Below, piece by piece: positions 9,251-28,981 of a DNA stretch of 32,441 nucleotides. This DNA is from a virus, in IMG/VR virus record IMGVR_UViG_3300046450_001696, positions 1-32,441 of that record; one strand, 5' to 3'. A program made the position numbers and the translations under genes. Every line of letters begins with the position of its first letter. The first letter of the stretch is position 1. Below the pieces are notes generated by a model. The model was not told where the DNA came from. It searched no databases and saw only the letters and a program-made list of their open reading frames with translations.

Positions 9251-10201
9251 ATGAGATTGGCACCAAAAAACGAAAATGTTTTTTTATGTGAAATTGAGCT
9301 AACCAATAAATGCAATTATAGATGTTCTTATTGCCCTCCCTTTTCTCACGCAGGTAAAGATGTATTAGATTATAATGATGTTTTATGGTATGTCGATAAA
9401 TTAATAGAAAATGATAATACTAAAACATACAGTATGCGATTATATGGAGGCGAGCCCATATATTACCGTTATATTGATATTTTATTAAAAGAATTATATA
9501 ATAGAGGGGTAACACAACATTTTGTAACAAATGCATCACGACCAATTGAATGGTGGGAAGAGTCACAGCAATTTCTCTCAGGTTGTATAATATCTATGCA
9601 TATGGAGTATGCTGATGTTGATCATATTGTAAATGTTTGTAAAACGTTTGATGCTGATAAACCAGTTTACGTTCAACAAATGATTGATCCAAAAATTTGG
9701 GATACTTGTATAGATAAATCTACGAAATTGTATAATGAATTACTAGATGTTAAGAATGCATTGTTAATACGCAAACCTATTAATCAAAGAAATAAGTACA
9801 GCCCTGCTTATACACCTGAACAAAACGATTTTATATCAAATTGGTATAAACATTTTCCTGATGATAAAGATTGGAACTATGACTGGGAGAAATTAGATAA
9901 TAATATAATATCAGGACCTCTTTATTGGAAAGAAGACGGCAAAGAAGAAGAAGAATATAATCGAATGGGTGCCAAGTTAACAGGCGGAGATAATTTTTTT
10001 GGATGGTTATGTAATGCTGGAACAGATGGAACTATTATAGATGCTCATGGAGAAGTACACAGATCTGCTTGTACAAGCAATATTAGTATTGGTAATATTA
10101 AAAATCGAAAAGTTGAACTACCAACTAAAGGAATCATATGCGATAAATATTCTTGTAGTTGTTTTACAGATTTACAATTTCGAAAGTTTAGGACAATATG
10201 A
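9251..10201 (+). CDS. radical SAM enzyme with SPASM-like auxiliary cluster domain, 316 aa
   Basis: The iron-sulphur/SAM motif is C21-x3-C25-x2-C28 (KCNYRCSYC), followed by LYGGEP (65-69), which contacts the SAM amino group. The C-terminus has a SPASM-like pattern: C254 in WLCNAGTDG, a DAHGEVHRSAC turn (C274), SIGNI, and three more cysteines (C297, C302, C304) that could hold a second cluster. SPASM enzymes commonly modify peptides or proteins; the target here is unknown. It lies between a nucleotidyltransferase and a short protein with two targeting-type repeats, and overlaps the latter by 4 bases (ATGA). The second radical SAM protein (18082-19266) shares several features. Confidence 0.85.
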   Translation: MRLAPKNENVFLCEIELTNKCNYRCSYCPPFSHAGKDVLDYNDVLWYVDKLIENDNTKTYSMRLYGGEPIYYRYIDILLKELYNRGVTQHFVTNASRPIEWWEESQQFLSGCIISMHMEYADVDHIVNVCKTFDADKPVYVQQMIDPKIWDTCIDKSTKLYNELLDVKNALLIRKPINQRNKYSPAYTPEQNDFISNWYKHFPDDKDWNYDWEKLDNNIISGPLYWKEDGKEEEEYNRMGAKLTGGDNFFGWLCNAGTDGTIIDAHGEVHRSACTSNISIGNIKNRKVELPTKGIICDKYSCSCFTDLQFRKFRTI

Positions 10202-10563
10202 AAATAAATGAAGTTATATTAGAAGGTGCGATTCTTGAAGGCGCCGGAATACAGAGATTTGTTAATGGAAATATACGACCAAACATGGCAGGTGGTGCAT
10301 ACTTTCATAGTAAAGCAGACCTTGACAACGCCCTTCTAGCACCAGAAGGTAGTTGGTTACATAAGGCCGGAATGAACTCGCCACAACGATTTGATTATAA
10401 ATGGAATACTAAAGCAAACAGAAGAAAAATAAAAACGGCTGTAAAAGGCGGAATTACAGGTGCTCAAAAATTTGCACAGAAATATAAAAATAAAGAACCC
10501 TTCGTTCCGAAAGTTAAACCTGATACTGATATATACAAGAACGTAAGGTATCCAACAAATTGA
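10198..10563 (+). CDS. small protein with doubled capsid-targeting-like N-terminus, 121 aa
   Basis: Begins MKINEVILEGAILEGAG, in which the ILE-G-A unit occurs twice; each matches the [LI]-x-E|[AG] site cut by T4 gp21 prohead protease. The rest is basic and rich in Lys, Asn and Gly (TKANRRKIKTAVKGG), like T4 internal proteins that coat DNA and are ejected with it. No catalytic motif is seen. It overlaps the radical SAM gene by 4 bases, so it could also be that enzyme's substrate; either idea is inference. Confidence 0.65.
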   Translation: MKINEVILEGAILEGAGIQRFVNGNIRPNMAGGAYFHSKADLDNALLAPEGSWLHKAGMNSPQRFDYKWNTKANRRKIKTAVKGGITGAQKFAQKYKNKEPFVPKVKPDTDIYKNVRYPTN

Positions 10564-10574
10564 GGACTAAAAAT

Positions 10575-10784
10575 ATGAATAAGCTATTATTACTTTTCGT
10601 AATGATGGCGACATGGATAGTTGTTGGATGCGGAACAAGTACATTAGGATGTTATGGACATTGGGTTAAAGGACCTCCTGAAAGAGGAACTAGAGCCCTT
10701 AATAAAGATGCCCATCTACCATATTATCAATGTGTAGATGAGAATAACAAAGGTAACAATTTAGAGAAACGGAGTCAATTTTGA
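10575..10784 (+). CDS. small predicted lipoprotein, 69 aa
   Basis: The start is chosen at the ATG at 10575, about 9 nt after a GAGGA ribosome site; an in-frame TTG at 10560 is less likely. MNKLLLLFVMMATWIVVGC is a lipoprotein signal peptide with lipobox V-V-G-C, so the mature protein would be a short lipid-anchored peptide with three more cysteines or so. Phage lipoproteins of this size act as outer spanins or as superinfection-exclusion factors that block receptors; I cannot tell which. Its stop overlaps the TTG start of the next gene. Confidence 0.65.
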   Translation: MNKLLLLFVMMATWIVVGCGTSTLGCYGHWVKGPPERGTRALNKDAHLPYYQCVDENNKGNNLEKRSQF

Positions 10785-17425: not shown

Positions 17426-18085
17426 ATGACACAAAAATATAACTATCCAGAGTCGCGACGTGCTATGGTAAACGGCGGAAGAGTATATACTGTCGGTGAT
17501 GAAAAGCTACCTAGCGTAACAACAATATTAGATAAAACAACTGATAAGTCTTTTCTTATTGCATGGCGAAAACGTGTTGGAGATGCCGAAGCAAACCGAG
17601 TGTCAAAAGAATCATCTGGGTTAGGTACAGCAACTCACAAACTTGTTGAAAATTATTTGCTAAAAAAAGAATCAAAACCTAAAGGTAATTTAGTATGGCA
17701 AATGGCTAAAACAATTAGCAAACCAATTATCGACAATCTGAAAGAAAACTTAGATGAAGCATGGGGGGTAGAATGTACACTTTTTTATCCTGATTTATAT
17801 GCTGGCACTACTGATTTGGTTGGGATATACAAAGGTGAACCAGCAATAATAGATTTTAAAACATCAAAGAAAATAAAAAAACGTGAATGGATTGATAATT
17901 ATTTTTTGCAATGTACCGCATATGCATTAGCTCATAATAAAATGTTTGACACAAAGATAAAAAACTGTTATATTTTAATGTGTGATCGTGCAGGTAATTA
18001 TAAAGAATTTTCTATGGACAATAATGAATTTCAATTATATTCTGATAAGTGGACAGAAACGCTTGATAGGTATTATGCATTATGA
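17426..18085 (+). CDS. PD-(D/E)XK exonuclease (RecB/Cas4-like), 219 aa
   Basis: Signature parts occur in order: GLGTATHKLVE (His of the N-terminal RecB-type motif), a Glu in WGVECTLFY, D in LYAGTTDLVG, then AIIDFKTSKK giving D-x-K, and FLQCTAYALA (the Q-x3-Y motif). These bind the metal ions that cut DNA. Such phage nucleases degrade host DNA or process recombination ends. It follows its own early-type promoter and overlaps the second radical SAM gene by 4 bases (ATGA). Confidence 0.85.
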   Translation: MTQKYNYPESRRAMVNGGRVYTVGDEKLPSVTTILDKTTDKSFLIAWRKRVGDAEANRVSKESSGLGTATHKLVENYLLKKESKPKGNLVWQMAKTISKPIIDNLKENLDEAWGVECTLFYPDLYAGTTDLVGIYKGEPAIIDFKTSKKIKKREWIDNYFLQCTAYALAHNKMFDTKIKNCYILMCDRAGNYKEFSMDNNEFQLYSDKWTETLDRYYAL

Positions 18086-19266
18086 CACCTATAGTAGCAA
18101 TAGACAGTGGTTCAGAACACTTTGAAATTACATGGGACTTAGGACGACGATGCAATTTTGATTGTACATATTGCGCCGACCACCGACATAATAATACATC
18201 TCAACATGCAAGTTTAGAAACATTAATAAAAACAAGTAAATTTGTTATTAAGTATAAAAACCTTCTTCAAACTTATATGTATTCTGATAGAGAATACATA
18301 ATTGGATTTACAGGAGGCGAGCCTACAAATAATCCTAATTTTCTTGCAATGTGCGAATATATACATTCGTTAAATGATCCTAGTATAATAATTGATGTCA
18401 CTACTAATGGAGCATTTAGCGAAACATATTGTAATAAACTTATGAAAGCAGTTAATAAAGCCACTATTAGTTATCATTGTGAAGTAGATCAAAGCATAAA
18501 AGATACCGTTATTGATAGAATTTATCAAATGAAGGAATCAAATTATGAGTGTCAAGTTAATTTAATGTTCCATGCTCAAGATGATTACTTTAATGAATGT
18601 GTTAACTTATTAGAACAATTTCAAAAGGATGATATACAATTTGTACCAAGAATAATAGGCGAAAGTTACGATAATGATAGATATAATCATCGATATACCG
18701 AGCAACAACATTCGTGGTTTAGAAATTATTGGAATCCAAAAGAAAAGTGGAGCCCTGCGTCGCCACGTAAAAAAGGACGAAAAGAATTAGGCCGACCATG
18801 TTGCGGCCGACGAGAGTTTTATACACTAGATGAAACAACCGCTAACGAAATGTTAGAAACAGAAATTAAATTTAAAACTAATGATTGGCGTAAATCTGTT
18901 TTTGCTTGTAGCACAGAATTTAAAGAATGGTCGTGTATGATTAATTGGAATTGGCTACACATTGAACAGGAATATGATCGTATATTACATCACCAAACAT
19001 GTAGAGCAAATTTTGGTGGTAAGCGAGGTGAAATTGGAACAATAACAGATTGCGATAAAATTATAGAACGATTAGAAAATCAATTTGCAACAGGAATTAT
19101 GCCTGTAATAGTATGTCCAAATAAACTTTGTGGCTGTGGGTTGTGTGTACAAAAATCAAAGCATCACAAAATAACTACAGCAATGTTTAATACAACGGTG
19201 AAAGGACTAACACCGTCGATAGGTACGGAATTAAAGAGACTAAATACTGAGAGTAAGGATATATAA
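18082..19266 (+). CDS. radical SAM enzyme with extra cysteine clusters, 394 aa
   Basis: C24-x3-C28-x2-C31 (RRCNFDCTYC) binds the radical SAM 4Fe-4S cluster, and GFTGGEP (75-81) is the SAM-contact motif. The C-terminal half holds many further cysteines: a C240-C241 pair (RPCCGRREF), C276, C285, C307, C324, and the tight set C345, C350, C352, C355 (CPNKLCGCGLC), consistent with one or two auxiliary clusters. A Trp-rich MINWNWLHIEQ segment is distinctive. The substrate is unknown. Expressed from an early-type promoter with a nuclease, it differs in timing from the first radical SAM gene. Confidence 0.85.
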   Translation: MTPIVAIDSGSEHFEITWDLGRRCNFDCTYCADHRHNNTSQHASLETLIKTSKFVIKYKNLLQTYMYSDREYIIGFTGGEPTNNPNFLAMCEYIHSLNDPSIIIDVTTNGAFSETYCNKLMKAVNKATISYHCEVDQSIKDTVIDRIYQMKESNYECQVNLMFHAQDDYFNECVNLLEQFQKDDIQFVPRIIGESYDNDRYNHRYTEQQHSWFRNYWNPKEKWSPASPRKKGRKELGRPCCGRREFYTLDETTANEMLETEIKFKTNDWRKSVFACSTEFKEWSCMINWNWLHIEQEYDRILHHQTCRANFGGKRGEIGTITDCDKIIERLENQFATGIMPVIVCPNKLCGCGLCVQKSKHHKITTAMFNTTVKGLTPSIGTELKRLNTESKDI

Positions 19267-24753: not shown

Positions 24754-25077
24754 ATGTATAGACCCCTCCCAAATGGTATTACAATAGGCCAAAGTAAAAT
24801 AGAAGGTTTAGGTTTAATATCTACAAAAGAGTTTGCAAAAGATGTTGTATTAGGAATTGTTCATATCCGTAATAGAAATTTTCCACACGGGTACATAAGA
24901 ACAGCATTAGGAGCATTTTATAATCATAATGACAATCCAAATTGTAAAGTATTAAACGGCTACTGGCATCAAATACCTGTAAAATACTTGATGACAATTA
25001 AAGATATAAAATCTGGTGATGAACTAACAGCGAAATATACATTATATGAGGTCGAAGAGGACGAATGGACAGATTAA
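24754..25077 (+). CDS. minimal SET-domain protein lysine methyltransferase, 107 aa
   Basis: SET motifs occur in order: IGQSKIEGLGLIST (11-24, the G-x-G SAM-binding turn), AFYNHNDNPNCKV (54-66, the NHS-x-x-PN-C motif that builds the pseudoknot) and IKSGDELTAKYTLY (85-98, G-E-L-T-x-x-Y). The length is close to the Chlorella-virus vSET histone methyltransferase (119 residues), so the whole protein is a bare SET core without pre- or post-SET zinc sites. The target is unknown; it could methylate a phage structural or host protein. It follows the tail gene by nine bases. Confidence 0.82.
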   Translation: MYRPLPNGITIGQSKIEGLGLISTKEFAKDVVLGIVHIRNRNFPHGYIRTALGAFYNHNDNPNCKVLNGYWHQIPVKYLMTIKDIKSGDELTAKYTLYEVEEDEWTD

Positions 25078-25154: not shown

Positions 25155-25248
25155 TGGCTCTGGGGGTAGGATTCGAACCTACACGCCCCTCTGCAAAAGG
25201 GACAATACGTAAACAACGCACCACGTCTACCTGTTTCGTCACCCCAGA
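25155..25248 (-). tRNA. unusual tRNA, Asn-type identity (anticodon GUU) with long variable arm
   Basis: The full fold can be drawn: acceptor TCTGGGG/CCCCAGA (7 bp, U1-A72), discriminator G73, encoded CCA, T-arm GTAGG-TTCGAAT-CCTAC, 3-bp D-stem ACG/CGT with a GGTAG loop, anticodon stem GTGCG/CGTAT with loop TTGTTTA. The anticodon is GUU (Asn). G34, U35, U36 and G73 are the known AsnRS identity set in E. coli, and U1-A72 also matches E. coli tRNA-Asn. However, D-arm spacing and the variable arm (GTCCCT/AGGGGC, 7-nt loop) are those of class II tRNA-Leu, and position 37 is U where a purine is expected. Its 5' end overlaps the stop codon of the zinc-finger gene. Confidence 0.78.
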
Positions 25249-25463
25249 GTCTGTTCTTTTATAAGATGTTCCTCTTGATGTTCTGCAAGTTCATCAAGGT
25301 CGGTAAATGTTTCGTCGCATTCAAAGCAACTAGCAAATCCATATTTTTTATAAAAGTTTTTATCATAAGCAAGTTCTCTTGCTTGTCTTTGTAATTCTTT
25401 TATCAAGTCATGTATCCCAGCTCCGTTTTTATAAATCGGAATTGTTTTATTGCTTGTAATCAT
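25239..25463 (-). CDS. small C2H2 zinc-finger protein, 74 aa
   Basis: The C-terminal half contains a clean C2H2 motif, C-x2-C-x12-H-x3-H (CFECDETF ... LAEHQEEH). The N-terminal half is a basic helix (IKELQRQARELAYDKNFYKK). Such small fingers bind nucleic acid or protein; a link to the adjacent tRNA is possible but not shown. The start ATG overlaps the stop of the synthetase-like gene (25463), and its TGA lies inside the tRNA 5' end, so the tRNA is probably cut from the same transcript. Confidence 0.75.
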   Translation of the reverse strand: MITSNKTIPIYKNGAGIHDLIKELQRQARELAYDKNFYKKYGFASCFECDETFTDLDELAEHQEEHLIKEQTLG

Positions 25464-26335
25464 TACATAAGGCCTGCTTTTTTCATTCCTGCAATCAAGC
25501 GTGTTATTCCTATTCCGCCTCCATACCTAGGTATGAAGTCATGTTTTAAAAATTCTTGAAGTTCTGCTTCTACTCTTTCTTTACCAAAGAGATCATACAA
25601 TAACTCGGCATACCCACCGTCTGATATTGTATGGAATTGATGTCGCATTTGGTCAGGATCAGTACCGCGTTCAGCACTACCGATAGTTTCCATTCCGCCT
25701 ATAATGACATCGCATTTATTAGCAAGTTTTCCAGTTTTTTTCACATCATCTTTACCAAGTTTCATGTTCCAAAAAGGACTTGTTGATTCTGGAAAATATG
25801 TTAGGAAAAATACATCTCCATATTCTTTATACATTTCTTCTTCATGTCCTGCATCTAATTCTGCACCAGTATATTTTGCTAAAACACTTTGATACATTCC
25901 GCCAGGAAAATCTTCAGTATAAGGATTTCTTTCATTTTTTGCTTTGAAACCAAGAAATTTACAAAGATCATTTTCCATTTGAAGAAGATCTTCAAAATTG
26001 CCAGGAGCTTCAAATTCGAACATTGGAAAAATAAGTTCGTGTCTACCTGGAGTTGGATTTTGTTCTTGCCTGTAACTTGTACTAACACAATAACAACCTG
26101 GTAAATCAGGTTTTGTTAGTAATTCATATTCAAGCCACATTTGACCTGTTTGAGGTAGTGGCCATATTTCACCGCTATACGTGTAGGTTGCAACCGTAGT
26201 TGGATCCTCACAAGCGGCTAGTATGCTTAATCTGCTTTGGGTATGTACTTCTTGAAAGTTTAAATTATCGAAAAAGGAACGAAGACGCTTAACCACCGTA
26301 GTAAATTCAACAGGGTTAATAAGTTGTGTAGTCAA
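25463..26335 (-). CDS. AsnRS/AspRS catalytic-core paralogue; probable asparagine synthetase (AS-AR type)
   Basis: A 290-residue class II aminoacyl-tRNA synthetase fold without the N-terminal anticodon-binding domain. Motif 2 is STSYRQEQNPTPGRHE (R89, E91). VFFLTYFPESTSPFWNMK (175-192) and CDVIIGGMETIGSAER (208-223) match AsnRS active-site segments. Motif 3 is RYGGGIGITRL (270-280). Archaeal AS-AR, the AspRS-like ammonia-dependent asparagine synthetase, is about the same length (294). Likely reaction: Asp + ATP + NH3 to Asn. An aminoacylating role with the neighbouring Asn-type tRNA is the main alternative. RBS ACGGAGAA and a late-type box (26362-26369) lie upstream. Confidence 0.82.
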   Translation of the reverse strand: MTTQLINPVEFTTVVKRLRSFFDNLNFQEVHTQSRLSILAACEDPTTVATYTYSGEIWPLPQTGQMWLEYELLTKPDLPGCYCVSTSYRQEQNPTPGRHELIFPMFEFEAPGNFEDLLQMENDLCKFLGFKAKNERNPYTEDFPGGMYQSVLAKYTGAELDAGHEEEMYKEYGDVFFLTYFPESTSPFWNMKLGKDDVKKTGKLANKCDVIIGGMETIGSAERGTDPDQMRHQFHTISDGGYAELLYDLFGKERVEAELQEFLKHDFIPRYGGGIGITRLIAGMKKAGLM

Positions 26336-26360
26336 AAAAAATTCTCCGTCTAAATCAAAA

Positions 26361-26795
26361 CTATTTATGCCGTGGGTCTAATTTCAGCTCTGTTGTAATT
26401 TCTAAACGTAGTCCATTTGGATCAAAAAAGTAAATGCTATAAATCCAGTCATCGTGATTAGTTGGGCCGATAACATCTATATCGTCCGATTTTAAAAGTT
26501 TGCACCATTTATCAACATCGTCCTTCGTATCTACTTCAAATGCAAAATGCACAATCCAATCATCACAATCAGTAGTTGTACCTTTGCCATCGCCAGTATC
26601 AAAAAAAGCAATATTACTACCGTCATCCATTTCAAAAAAGATATGTTTGTACGGAGCATATTCTCCTGTACTTGGTACATAATCTTTTTCTATAGTATGA
26701 ACAAGAGGCAGATTTAAAATTCCACTATAAAAATCAATTGTTTCTTGCACATTGGCACATTTCCAAGCAAAATGATGCAACCCGTTAATGTGCAT
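26361..26795 (-). CDS. VOC-superfamily metalloenzyme (glyoxalase/dioxygenase type), 144 aa
   Basis: The start is placed at 26795 (MHINGLHHFAW), giving a normal single VOC domain and an 11-base overlap with the previous gene; a longer frame to 26852 would run inside that gene. Candidate metal ligands stand at the usual places: H7 or H8, E55 (HIFFEMDDG), H83 (WIVHFAFEV) and E132 (GLRLEITTE). Two beta-alpha-beta-beta-beta repeats are visible. Members act as glyoxalases, epimerases, resistance proteins or dioxygenases. Coupled expression with an oxidase and the synthetase-like protein suggests a shared small-molecule pathway. Confidence 0.85.
   Translation of the reverse strand: MHINGLHHFAWKCANVQETIDFYSGILNLPLVHTIEKDYVPSTGEYAPYKHIFFEMDDGSNIAFFDTGDGKGTTTDCDDWIVHFAFEVDTKDDVDKWCKLLKSDDIDVIGPTNHDDWIYSIYFFDPNGLRLEITTELKLDPRHK
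26362..26369 (-). promoter_or_regulatory. late-promoter-like CATAAATA before the synthetase-like gene
   Basis: On the minus strand, one mismatch to TATAAATA, 26 nt upstream of the ATG at 26335 and overlapping the end of the VOC gene. It may allow separate late expression of the synthetase-like gene, zinc finger and tRNA. Confidence 0.4.
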
Positions 26796-27546
26796 AGTGT
26801 TCTCGGCTGATACGTTCTTGGTCAAGCCCAACCCAAAACGCTTCGACTCCATTTAACATTTCATTACCTGCTTTAATAAACAAATCCTCATTAAGGTTAT
26901 GTTCATTGTACAATGTGATCATTTCTTCTCTTGTGTGTTCGGCATGTTGTTCTTCTAACTTGTCATGCCATGTAAAAAATCCTAAAGGCAAATTTAAAGA
27001 ATATTTTGTTTTAAATTTTTGTAATCCTGCTATCAAATCTTTCCAAAAGCCGGCCGCCGCCCAATTTTCTACTGCAAAACTTGCACCTGCAGATACATTA
27101 AAATCTTCATTACCATATATTCTAATTAATTCATCACAATAAAATAATGTTGCTGGCGATCCGTGTTTTCGTTTACCTATATCATCAAATGTTAATCCTA
27201 ATGGTTTAGCAAAACTAACTAGCCATTCGAAATGTGCAGATGCAAATCTATATGTTCCTTCATCTACAGAACCATCTTTAAAAGCAACCCCTATTTCATT
27301 TGCTAATACTTCTTTTCCTGCTCTTGCTTCCTCTAAATCTATTGCATTTATAACTTTGTTTAATTGAGCAATAATAAATTGATTTGAAAAAACAGAAAAT
27401 TGTTGGGTAAATTGACGTACATCTTCTAATATTAAATTTGGTGTATGCCTAAACCAACTACAATATTTGTTGTCTATTATAACTGAATGATTAAGTAATT
27501 CATTATCTATTCGTTCTAAAAAATTATCAAGAGGCATACTTGTCAT
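26785..27546 (-). CDS. haem-oxygenase-like di-iron oxidase (HDO) family protein, 253 aa
   Basis: Wholly helical, as for the haem-oxygenase-like fold. Candidate di-iron ligands: E84 (LANEIGVAF), H105/E107 (SAHFEWL), E160 (FAVENWAAAGFW) and H194-x3-E198-x2-H201 (TWHDKLEEQHAEH), the H-x3-D/E-x2-H motif of this family. Known members (UndA, BesC, SznF, CADD) perform oxidative cleavage or hydroxylation of amino acids and fatty acids. It overlaps the upstream membrane-protein gene by 20 bases and the VOC gene by 11, so all three are co-translated. The substrate is unknown; an amino acid or amide is suggested only by the neighbours. Confidence 0.75.
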   Translation of the reverse strand: MTSMPLDNFLERIDNELLNHSVIIDNKYCSWFRHTPNLILEDVRQFTQQFSVFSNQFIIAQLNKVINAIDLEEARAGKEVLANEIGVAFKDGSVDEGTYRFASAHFEWLVSFAKPLGLTFDDIGKRKHGSPATLFYCDELIRIYGNEDFNVSAGASFAVENWAAAGFWKDLIAGLQKFKTKYSLNLPLGFFTWHDKLEEQHAEHTREEMITLYNEHNLNEDLFIKAGNEMLNGVEAFWVGLDQERISREHYAH

Positions 27547-27808
27547 CGTCCCAATTATCTAATTCTTTCCAGCCTTCCCAATCAGGGATACTTTTACGAA
27601 TTACATTGGTTCGAGCAACTATCATTTCTGCAAGCCCAAATCCTTCATGAATAAAGGGAAAAATTGCATGTACGTGAGAGAAGAATGCTATATAATAATA
27701 AATTGATCCGCATTTAAGTGCAATCCATGCATGGTAAAAATAATAAGATAGATTACACGGTCTACCTGCGGCTTTGGCCGCATTTTGTAAATGTTCTGTA
27801 AGAAACAT
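27527..27808 (-). CDS. DUF6356-like small membrane protein, 93 aa
   Basis: FLTEHLQNAAKAAGRPCNLSYYFYHAWIALKCG, followed by hydrophobic IYYYIAFFSHVHAIFPFIHEGFG, fits a family of short, His-rich membrane proteins that I associate with DUF6356. Several His residues lie in or near the membrane segment, so metal or quinone contact is possible. It is the first gene of the minus cassette, under a late-type box at 27871-27878, and its end overlaps the oxidase start by 20 bases. It might place the oxidase at the membrane; this is inference. Confidence 0.6.
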   Translation of the reverse strand: MFLTEHLQNAAKAAGRPCNLSYYFYHAWIALKCGSIYYYIAFFSHVHAIFPFIHEGFGLAEMIVARTNVIRKSIPDWEGWKELDNWDDDKYAS

Positions 27809-27870
27809 ATGTTACCTCGCTATTTAAATTTAATTATTAACGTGGTTTCCTAATAATAGGTTTCCGCACG

Positions 27871-27878
27871 TATTTATT
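27871..27878 (-). promoter_or_regulatory. late-promoter-like AATAAATA for the minus-strand cassette
   Basis: Reads AATAAATA on the minus strand, about 62 nt upstream of the first cassette gene (start 27808). It lies in the 213-bp divergent gap shared with the glutamine synthetase gene. Confidence 0.5.
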
Positions 27879-27925
27879 TTTTATAGTGCTAGTTAATAGA
27901 AAACTAAATACACTTTGAATGTTAT

Positions 27926-28014
27926 AAAATTAGGCGTTTTTGGAAGAAATTCACTGGAAAATTTTACAGACATTGCTTATATTTTCAACATAAAATTAAA
28001 CGTTTTCGGAAGGA
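27926..28014 (+). repeat. two-copy direct repeat in the glutamine synthetase leader
   Basis: Copies at 27926-27948 and 27992-28014, 66 nt apart, share about 19 of 23 bases (AAAATTA-xx-CGTTTT-x-GGAAG core). Each is preceded by a -10-like TATA/CATA. The second copy supplies the GGAAGGA ribosome site of the glutamine synthetase gene. It may be a duplicated leader/promoter or a two-site operator. Apart from this repeat and the late-type box at 27871, I see nothing else in the 27809-28021 gap. Confidence 0.6.
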
Positions 28015-28021
28015 AAACAAC

Positions 28022-28981
28022 ATGAAGACAGTACTAGAATACGTATGGCTCGATGCGAACGAGCATTTACGTAGTAAAACAAAAGTCGCCGATGGCGATA
28101 TTAATAAGTTAGAACTAGTTCCAATTTGGGGTTATGATGGTTCATCAACTGATCAAGCTCCTGGCAACCATTCTGATGTTACATTAACCCCGGTTAAACT
28201 TTATCATAACCCATTCCAGCCATCAGGTTGGCTTGTTATGTGTTCAACTGAAAAGAGAGAAGCCATAACATTTGAAGACTCTGATGATTATTGGTTTGGA
28301 TTTGAACAAGAATACTTTATAACAAATGGTACTGGTAAACCACTAGGCTGGGCAAACGGAGAGCCCGGACCTCAAGGACCATATTACTGTGGTGTAGGTG
28401 CAAGTAAAGTTGCAGGAAGAAAAGTAGTTTCAGATCATATGGATGCATGTATTGATGCAGAGATTGATATCACTGGTACAAACGCTGAAGTTGCTCTTGG
28501 CCAATGGGAATATCAAGTGTTTAGTAAAGGTGCAAAGAATGCCGGTGATGATCTTTGGATGTCACGATATATTTTAGAGAGAGTTGCAGAAGAGCATGGC
28601 TGTGATATTAATATAGAACCTAAACCTATTAAAGGTGATTGGAATGGATCTGGGATGCATACAAACTTTAGCACAAACGAGATGAGAAACGATTCTCAGT
28701 TAGGTGTCTATCATGATATATTAGATAAAATGAAAGCCCGACATGCTGAACACATAGCAGTATATGGAAAAGATAATGATCAAAGATTGACTGGTGAACA
28801 CGAGACAGCATCTATTGATCAGTTTACTTATGGTGAAGGTGATAGAGGTGCAAGTGTGAGAATACCTCTTGAGACAGTTGAGTCTAATTATACAACTGGT
28901 TACTTAGAAGATAGACGACCAGCATCTAATGCCAATCCATATGATATCACAAAAGTTATTATAGATACTATTCAAGCATAA
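28022..28981 (+). CDS. glutamine synthetase, eukaryotic (GSII) type, 319 aa
   Basis: Nearly every GSII block is present: WGYDGSSTDQAPG (N-terminal beta-grasp), WFGFEQEYFI (metal-binding Glu), GPYYCGVGA, IDITGTNAEVALGQWEYQV, GDWNGSGMHTNFST (His/Asn ATP and glutamate site), RLTGEHETASIDQF, RGASVRIP (catalytic Arg) and GYLEDRRPASNANPYD. It joins Glu and ammonia using ATP to make Gln. About 30-40 residues shorter than usual GSII (350-370), lost at the termini, with all active-site blocks kept. AAGGA lies before the ATG. It is divergent from the cassette with the asparagine-synthetase-like gene and followed by its own terminator. GSII in a phage is highly unusual. Confidence 0.95.
   Translation: MKTVLEYVWLDANEHLRSKTKVADGDINKLELVPIWGYDGSSTDQAPGNHSDVTLTPVKLYHNPFQPSGWLVMCSTEKREAITFEDSDDYWFGFEQEYFITNGTGKPLGWANGEPGPQGPYYCGVGASKVAGRKVVSDHMDACIDAEIDITGTNAEVALGQWEYQVFSKGAKNAGDDLWMSRYILERVAEEHGCDINIEPKPIKGDWNGSGMHTNFSTNEMRNDSQLGVYHDILDKMKARHAEHIAVYGKDNDQRLTGEHETASIDQFTYGEGDRGASVRIPLETVESNYTTGYLEDRRPASNANPYDITKVIIDTIQA

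Follow-up and report, generated by a model that had tools for sequence, protein, structure and literature searches.

A truncated asparaginyl-tRNA synthetase paralogue paired with an unusual GUU tRNA in phages, and its link to pyrimidine synthesis genes

De novo pyrimidine synthesis is regarded as a universal pathway of six steps. Transfer RNAs that are aminoacylated yet escape translation are known from staphylococci (tRNA-Gly, for the cell wall) and from Bacillus cereus (tRNA-Other). Here we describe a gene pair that touches on both subjects: a truncated class II paralogue of asparaginyl-tRNA synthetase (AsnRS) with a probable role in pyrimidine synthesis, and an odd tRNA with anticodon GUU downstream of it. 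The pair was found on the minus strand of a viral DNA stretch of 32,441 nucleotides (IMG/VR record IMGVR_UViG_3300046450_001696, positions 1 to 32,441), which was analysed at its full length and is called the window below. In the cyanophages P-SSM2 and P-SSM7 the synthetase has only been listed as a “tRNA ligase” (T4-GC 194; PMC3037559). Our literature searches found no published account of the synthetase-tRNA pair, in keeping with the initial annotation of the window, which had not recognised the gene combination from any described phage system.

The synthetase gene of the window (25463..26335, minus strand) starts with TTG, immediately preceded by GGAGAA, and encodes a protein of 290 amino acids whose sole domain is PF00152 (tRNA-synt_2, 68.1 bits); it belongs to phrog_29758 (346 bits). 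An N-terminal OB-fold anticodon-binding domain was not found in the protein, and its AlphaFold2 (AF2) model, which is confident (pLDDT 88.9), aligns with the catalytic part of AsnRS only. Among solved structures, catalytic domains of AsnRS are nearest in fold (Foldseek: 1x54; VIA: 2xti_A, Z 26.5, root-mean-square deviation (rmsd) 2.5, 251 aligned residues), while the score for the curated AsnRS family NF003037 stays at 24.0 bits against a cut-off of 414. Phages, bacteria and archaea all conserve the class II motif 2 and motif 3 arginines without exception, along with E69 and R223, which align with the Glu and Arg that recognise the side chain in AsnRS. The initial annotation had called this protein an AS-AR-like synthetase. 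The stand-alone synthetase core holds, and it is AsnRS that ranks higher by profile (2e-12 versus 6.6e-4 for AS-AR, 3p8t) and by fold, the best AS-AR structure (3reu_B, VIA) reaching Z 23.2 (rmsd 2.4, 239 aligned). An asparagine synthetase of the AS-AR kind, making free Asn from Asp, NH3 and ATP next to a regulatory or incidental tRNA, would share the truncated architecture and account for both of these matches; it would leave the tRNA unexplained, as well as the pyrimidine synteny and the missing carbamoyl-phosphate synthetase (CPSase) and PyrB genes described below, and we regard it as quite unlikely.

Searched against viral contigs, the synthetase has more than 595 relatives. After three further scans with divergent queries, the phage set comprised 310 loci. 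A GUU tRNA lies within the window of the tRNA finder at 266 of these, starting 0-15 nt past the synthetase stop codon in 216 of the 266, and three more overlap the stop codon itself. The finder preferred GUU, and few other tRNAs were found. Since about 13 of the loci lacking the tRNA end within 150 nt, 297 loci are informative, and approximately 90% of these carry it. At two loci (L072 and L270) the linked tRNA has the anticodon GUC (Asp) and retains U1-A72 and G73, which is what charging by AspRS would predict. In the cultured cyanophages P-SSM2, P-SSM5 and P-SSM7 the tRNA follows the synthetase within a few bases. The two genes thus belong together, as had been proposed from the window alone, and as a unit they recur in hundreds of phages. 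Two huge phages (LR756501 and LR756508) have a synthetase homologue on a very long branch and no tRNA; the LR756508 protein, used as a query, found no matches in the viral contigs. A third huge phage (LR756511) has a DHODH-like gene with no synthetase within 20 kb.

The tRNA of the window (25155..25248, minus strand; ARAGORN) is 94 nt long, with a long variable arm, U1-A72, G73, U33, U37 and an encoded CCA end, and scores 40.5 bits against the gathering threshold of 29 for the Rfam tRNA model. In an alignment of 27 sequences, all 20 stem pairs are paired in 100% of cells, and 16 of the 20 change on both sides. Two-sided changes with pairing kept, together with the score of 40.5 bits, show that the fold is under selection and not a product of chance. 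Among 180 distinct sequences, GUU and G73 are found in all 180 and U1-A72 in 179, and the neighbouring acceptor pairs vary freely; U33 is present in 150 and U37 in 155. In most of them the body of the tRNA, namely the D arm and the long variable arm, is Leu-like, judged against E. coli tRNA-Leu, and not of the class I type with a short variable loop. Position 37 is the t6A site for ANN codons when occupied by a purine. In the copies detected by ARAGORN, a purine 37 occurs in 12 of 124 and U33 in 100 of 124, so that 90% and 19%, respectively, are without these features. In sharp contrast, a control set of 115 further tRNAs encoded at these viral loci has a purine 37 in 114 and U33 in 113 cases (p 6e-53 and 5e-6, values that overstate independence because the sequences are related). 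The copy in the window keeps U33 but has U37.

U1-A72 is a recognition element of bacterial GatCAB in tRNA-Asn (PMC4206432). With GUU, G73 and U1-A72, the phage tRNA thus seems to keep the marks for Asp/Asn charging and amidation, and not those for decoding. Since the decoding features are not kept, the tRNA would be charged and hardly or not at all used on the ribosome, and it very probably does not serve decoding. A self-contained translation pair, in which the long variable arm serves the enzyme for charging the tRNA, which would read AAC/AAU in phage mRNA and might evade anticodon nucleases of the host, would fit the tight pairing, the fully kept GUU anticodon, the nearest structures and the AsnRS-type substrate residues. 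It does not fit the loss of U33 and of purine 37, which same-contig tRNAs retain, nor an enzyme devoid of an anticodon-binding domain, nor cellular members that stand without the tRNA in pyrimidine gene clusters of genomes with AsnRS or GatB. On balance such a pair is unlikely, and for the retained anticodon, charging by a synthetase of the host would be the simpler explanation, given that the phage enzyme lacks the domain to bind it.

In cells, the gene is found in Bacteroidota (Aureispira), many Patescibacteria, Midichloriaceae, Pasteurella atlantica, Dependentiae, Myxococcota and DPANN archaea. The GUU tRNA is absent from the cellular loci, except for three contigs whose proteins fall among those of phages. 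A pattern search of 30 cellular genomes for a Leu-body GUU tRNA elsewhere gave no credible copy; its tRNA-like matches were rejected as ordinary tRNA-Leu. In the tree, the phage proteins fall into a loose group (94/60) together with the proteins of Midichloria, a Rhodospirillaceae bacterium and P. atlantica, while those of Bacteroidota and Patescibacteria branch outside it. From these placements, gene transfer between phages and bacteria is likely. In nine Patescibacteria loci (L095, L096, L099, L107, L111, L112, L123, L144 and L163) the gene lies upstream of tRNA-Gln(UUG) in conserved order, and dus- and dnaX-like genes recur in its neighbourhood.

The link of the family to pyrimidine synthesis is well supported. 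Among 79 cellular loci, PyrE/PyrF-like genes are nearby in 22 and DHODH in 19. Midichloriaceae and a Rhodospirillaceae bacterium share the Pfam-checked order synthetase - OMP decarboxylase (OMPDC) - phosphoribosyltransferase (PRTase) - DHODH, and in P. atlantica pyrD is divergent to synthetase - pyrF - PRTase. Phages show the same company: OMPDC and PRTase follow the tRNA in L018 and L020-L022, DHODH directly precedes the synthetase in L415-L419, and L426 and L427 carry DHODH - synthetase - tRNA - PRTase in a row. In the reverse search, the synthetase was held by 5 of 11 DHODH-carrying viral loci and by 4 of 4 PRTase loci. Against 50,697 phage records, a phage DHODH found one good match, and the one phage PRTase used as query found none. 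Matches of the L197 type were rejected as OMPDC, being PRTase/UPRTase-like. Also, a NodU/TobZ-like carbamoyltransferase gene was noticed by eye within approximately 4 kb of the synthetase in L010 (10360-11808) and in 16 other phage loci.

The genomes that carry the gene have, for the most part, lost the canonical first steps. CPSase (large subunit) exceeds its cut-off in only 2 of 21 carrier genomes (G024 and G025), PyrB in one (G025), the multi-type PyrC in one and the dimeric PyrC in none, so that 19 are without CPSase and 20 without PyrB; DHODH exceeds its cut-off in 17. In each of the 14 control genomes, CPSase and PyrB both exceed their cut-offs. Within the family of Aureispira (120 genomes), none of the three carriers has any PyrB match, and 106 of the 117 non-carriers have PyrB over the cut-off (Fisher p 0.0013 for exclusion). 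AsnRS exceeds its cut-off in 11 of the 21 carriers and GatB in 13, the draft assembly G015 being the sole genome with neither; the Asn-tRNA needed for translation is therefore otherwise provided. The suggestion that the window's genes feed amide nitrogen to phage protein synthesis accordingly fits poorly: the tRNA is without decoding features, and the cellular homologues sit beside pyrimidine genes in genomes where AsnRS or GatB is already present. Judged from synteny and gene content, the enzyme probably has a role in pyrimidine synthesis.

Retention of PyrD, PyrE and PyrF without the upstream steps would also suit a regulator or salvage-associated protein, with orotate or dihydroorotate being imported and the paralogue sensing Asn or charged tRNA in order to control the pyr genes. 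Paralogues of aminoacyl-tRNA synthetases can be regulators, e.g. HisZ and GCN2. The ATP-binding and substrate residues, however, are all invariant from phages to bacteria and archaea, which points to catalysis, and in the phage version no gene but the paralogue is constant; this makes such a role very unlikely. The same synteny and the same gene absences would be expected if the enzyme carried out an ATP-driven cyclisation of N-carbamoyl-aspartate, as a dihydroorotase analogue, or another pyrimidine step from a different precursor, and AS-AR relatives do activate the beta-carboxylate of Asp. Such an activity leaves the Asn-type tRNA and residues unexplained, and carbamoyl-aspartate would have no obvious source, because most carriers are without CPSase and PyrB. 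It too appears improbable.

The best explanation overall, held with somewhat less than even confidence, is that the AsnRS paralogue activates Asn on a route to dihydroorotate which bypasses carbamoyl phosphate, and that the phage tRNA is a non-decoding Asn donor. Structurally, dihydroorotate corresponds to asparagine whose alpha-amine and side-chain amide are joined through a single carbonyl. The enzyme would stand in for carbamoyl-phosphate synthetase, aspartate carbamoyltransferase and dihydroorotase (CarAB, PyrB and PyrC) by activating the alpha-carboxylate of Asn, either as Asn~AMP or as the Asn-tRNA ester. Activated Asn would then react with CO2 to give the Asn N-carboxyanhydride, a conversion known for aminoacyl adenylates from non-enzymatic chemistry (PMC6462974). 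Closure of the six-membered ring would follow from attack of the side-chain amide nitrogen on C2 of the anhydride, with release of the carboxylate, yielding dihydroorotate, which DHODH, OPRT and OMP decarboxylase of phage or host could convert to UMP. Asn as the substrate and dihydroorotate as the product are a tentative assignment, less likely than not to hold. For the phage tRNA, charging by host AsnRS, or by AspRS followed by GatCAB amidation, with delivery of Asn to the enzyme, has a nearly even chance of being correct; as a speculation, the glutamine synthetase GSII encoded in the window could supply glutamine for GatCAB. In some bacteria, Asn arises solely on tRNA (PMC4206432). A phage that infects them would have to draw its Asn from a tRNA, and this would explain why a dedicated tRNA bears AspRS/GatCAB marks and why cells do not have it. 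The initial annotation had considered a small molecule whose synthesis involves the tRNA as a partner. This comes near to the reading preferred here, in which that molecule is dihydroorotate and the chemistry is inferred.

Several observations weigh against this reading. The reaction of the enzyme is conjecture, and catalysis is putative in all members of the family. The cellular members do without such a tRNA, so the tRNA is not an absolute need of the enzyme family. A pyr-type gene is nearby at only 37 of the 310 phage loci (a count of any pyr gene with Pfam-checked examples, used because the iterated PyrF profile also caught PRTase ORFs and its 32 phage PyrF matches are too many), at 6 of the 11 phage DHODH loci the accessible surroundings contain no synthetase, and the PRTase of the cassettes is short (approximately 130 amino acids), with a putative base specificity. 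Neither DHODH nor OMPDC was seen in the window or in its 89.5 kb relative. Sub-cut-off PyrC-like proteins occur in four large carrier genomes, and many of the cellular genomes are metagenome-assembled genomes (MAGs) of unstated completeness. Haemophilus influenzae has lost the first three steps, keeps PyrD/E/F and is not known to have this gene, and 11 of the 117 non-carriers in the Aureispira family are likewise without PyrB over the cut-off; salvage of orotate or dihydroorotate is thus possible.

The 89.5 kb relative (contig C2 of G149; L410-L414), the nearest to the window at 95-98% identity, is binned with a Methylophilaceae MAG. Methylophilaceae may be the host, although binning is not proof of it. 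Besides phage structural genes, this contig contains, as judged by eye, a MetRS-like fragment and suf-like, amidinotransferase-like and ferredoxin reductase-like ORFs, as well as a PRTase-like ORF (10135-10626) with a weak score only, and it is possibly chimeric.

In the window, all six genes and the tRNA of the cassette were confirmed. The minus-strand run begins with ORF93 (27527..27808; 93 amino acids, DUF6356 match below cut-off), followed by an HDO/CADD-like putative iron oxidase (26785..27546), a VOC/glyoxalase-superfamily enzyme (26361..26852, with an alternative ATG start at 26795), the synthetase, a 74-amino-acid ORF with one C2H2-like motif (25239..25463) and the tRNA. It had been described as five overlapping genes ending in a tRNA. 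The order, the tRNA and most overlaps (20, 68 or, with the shorter VOC gene, 11, then 1 and 10 nt) stand, and the VOC/synthetase junction is the sole exception with a gap of 25 nt. As predicted, the GlnII-type glutamine synthetase (28022..28981, plus strand) is divergent from this run across 213 nt; PF00120 exceeds its own cut-off (63.8 bits), and the best curated family, GlnII, reaches 324.9 bits versus a cut-off of 500. The VOC assignment is firm (PF00903, 55.7 versus 20.6 bits). The proposed zinc finger has its C2H2-like motif and stays below the Pfam cut-off (zf-C2H2, 20.4 versus 25.2 bits), and the ORF read as a di-iron oxidase is present with family scores far below the cut-offs (Haem_oxygenas_2, 18.0 versus 28.9 bits; CADD, 20.8 versus 200 bits) and an AF2 model of pLDDT 35 built from three sequences only.

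The whole gene set had been taken for one module, and a synteny search in viral contigs does not bear this out. Compared with the more than 595 relatives of the synthetase, the HDO-like oxidase has only two (L009 and L014), related contigs in both of which HDO-like, VOC, ORF93 and GSII genes occur together; a single conserved six-gene module is thereby ruled out. What is conserved is the synthetase with its tRNA, and the HDO/VOC/ORF93 block stands apart as a lineage-specific unit. GSII is also present in L012, in addition to L009 and L014, and the 74-amino-acid ORF, which has relatives in about one in four of the first 85 phage loci, separates synthetase and tRNA in some of the phages only. 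Elsewhere in the window, a small SET-domain protein (24754-25077; PF00856, 35.9 bits) adjoins the tRNA end of the cassette, and a Cas4-like nuclease (17426-18085; 22 bits) lies beside a radical SAM protein (18082-19266; MoaA 37 bits and viperin family 34 bits, both far below cut-off).

Taken at its widest, the reading would amount to a second natural pyrimidine route, in which an AsnRS paralogue makes dihydroorotate from Asn and bicarbonate in Bacteroidota, Patescibacteria, some Proteobacteria and many marine phages, with a dedicated, charged, non-decoding tRNA serving it in the phages; in this full form it is possible and rather doubtful. If true, the first three steps would be replaced by a relative of a tRNA synthetase, filling metabolic gaps in Patescibacteria and other genomes called auxotrophs. 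It would also add a new class of non-decoding tRNA, make nucleotide synthesis during infection tRNA-dependent in phages, and show how abundant marine phages, including cultured cyanophages, obtain pyrimidines. The idea is directly testable with one small enzyme and one tRNA, and P-SSM2, P-SSM7 and Aureispira are in culture.

Compared with known systems, the enzyme shares with AsnRS (class IIb) the catalytic fold, motifs 2 and 3, and the Glu and Arg residues placed where the side chain is recognised. It differs by the missing N-terminal anticodon-binding domain, a shorter C-terminus, a low NCBIfam score (24 versus 414 bits) and, in cells, by its coexistence with a normal AsnRS or GatCAB. Like AS-AR, the archaeal asparagine synthetase A (3p8t, 3reu), it is a stand-alone AsnRS/AspRS-type catalytic domain of approximately 290 amino acids, and AS-AR ranks behind AsnRS both by profile and by fold; we know of neither a dedicated tRNA nor pyrimidine synteny for AS-AR. 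With the canonical pathway (CarAB-PyrB-PyrC-PyrD-PyrE-PyrF) the carriers share PyrD, a PyrE-like protein and PyrF, whereas the first three steps are missing in most of them. The phage tRNA resembles staphylococcal tRNA-Gly and B. cereus tRNA-Other as a tRNA apparently kept for aminoacylation and escaping translation; unlike these, it combines a Leu-type body with an Asn anticodon and is phage-borne, beside an AsnRS paralogue.

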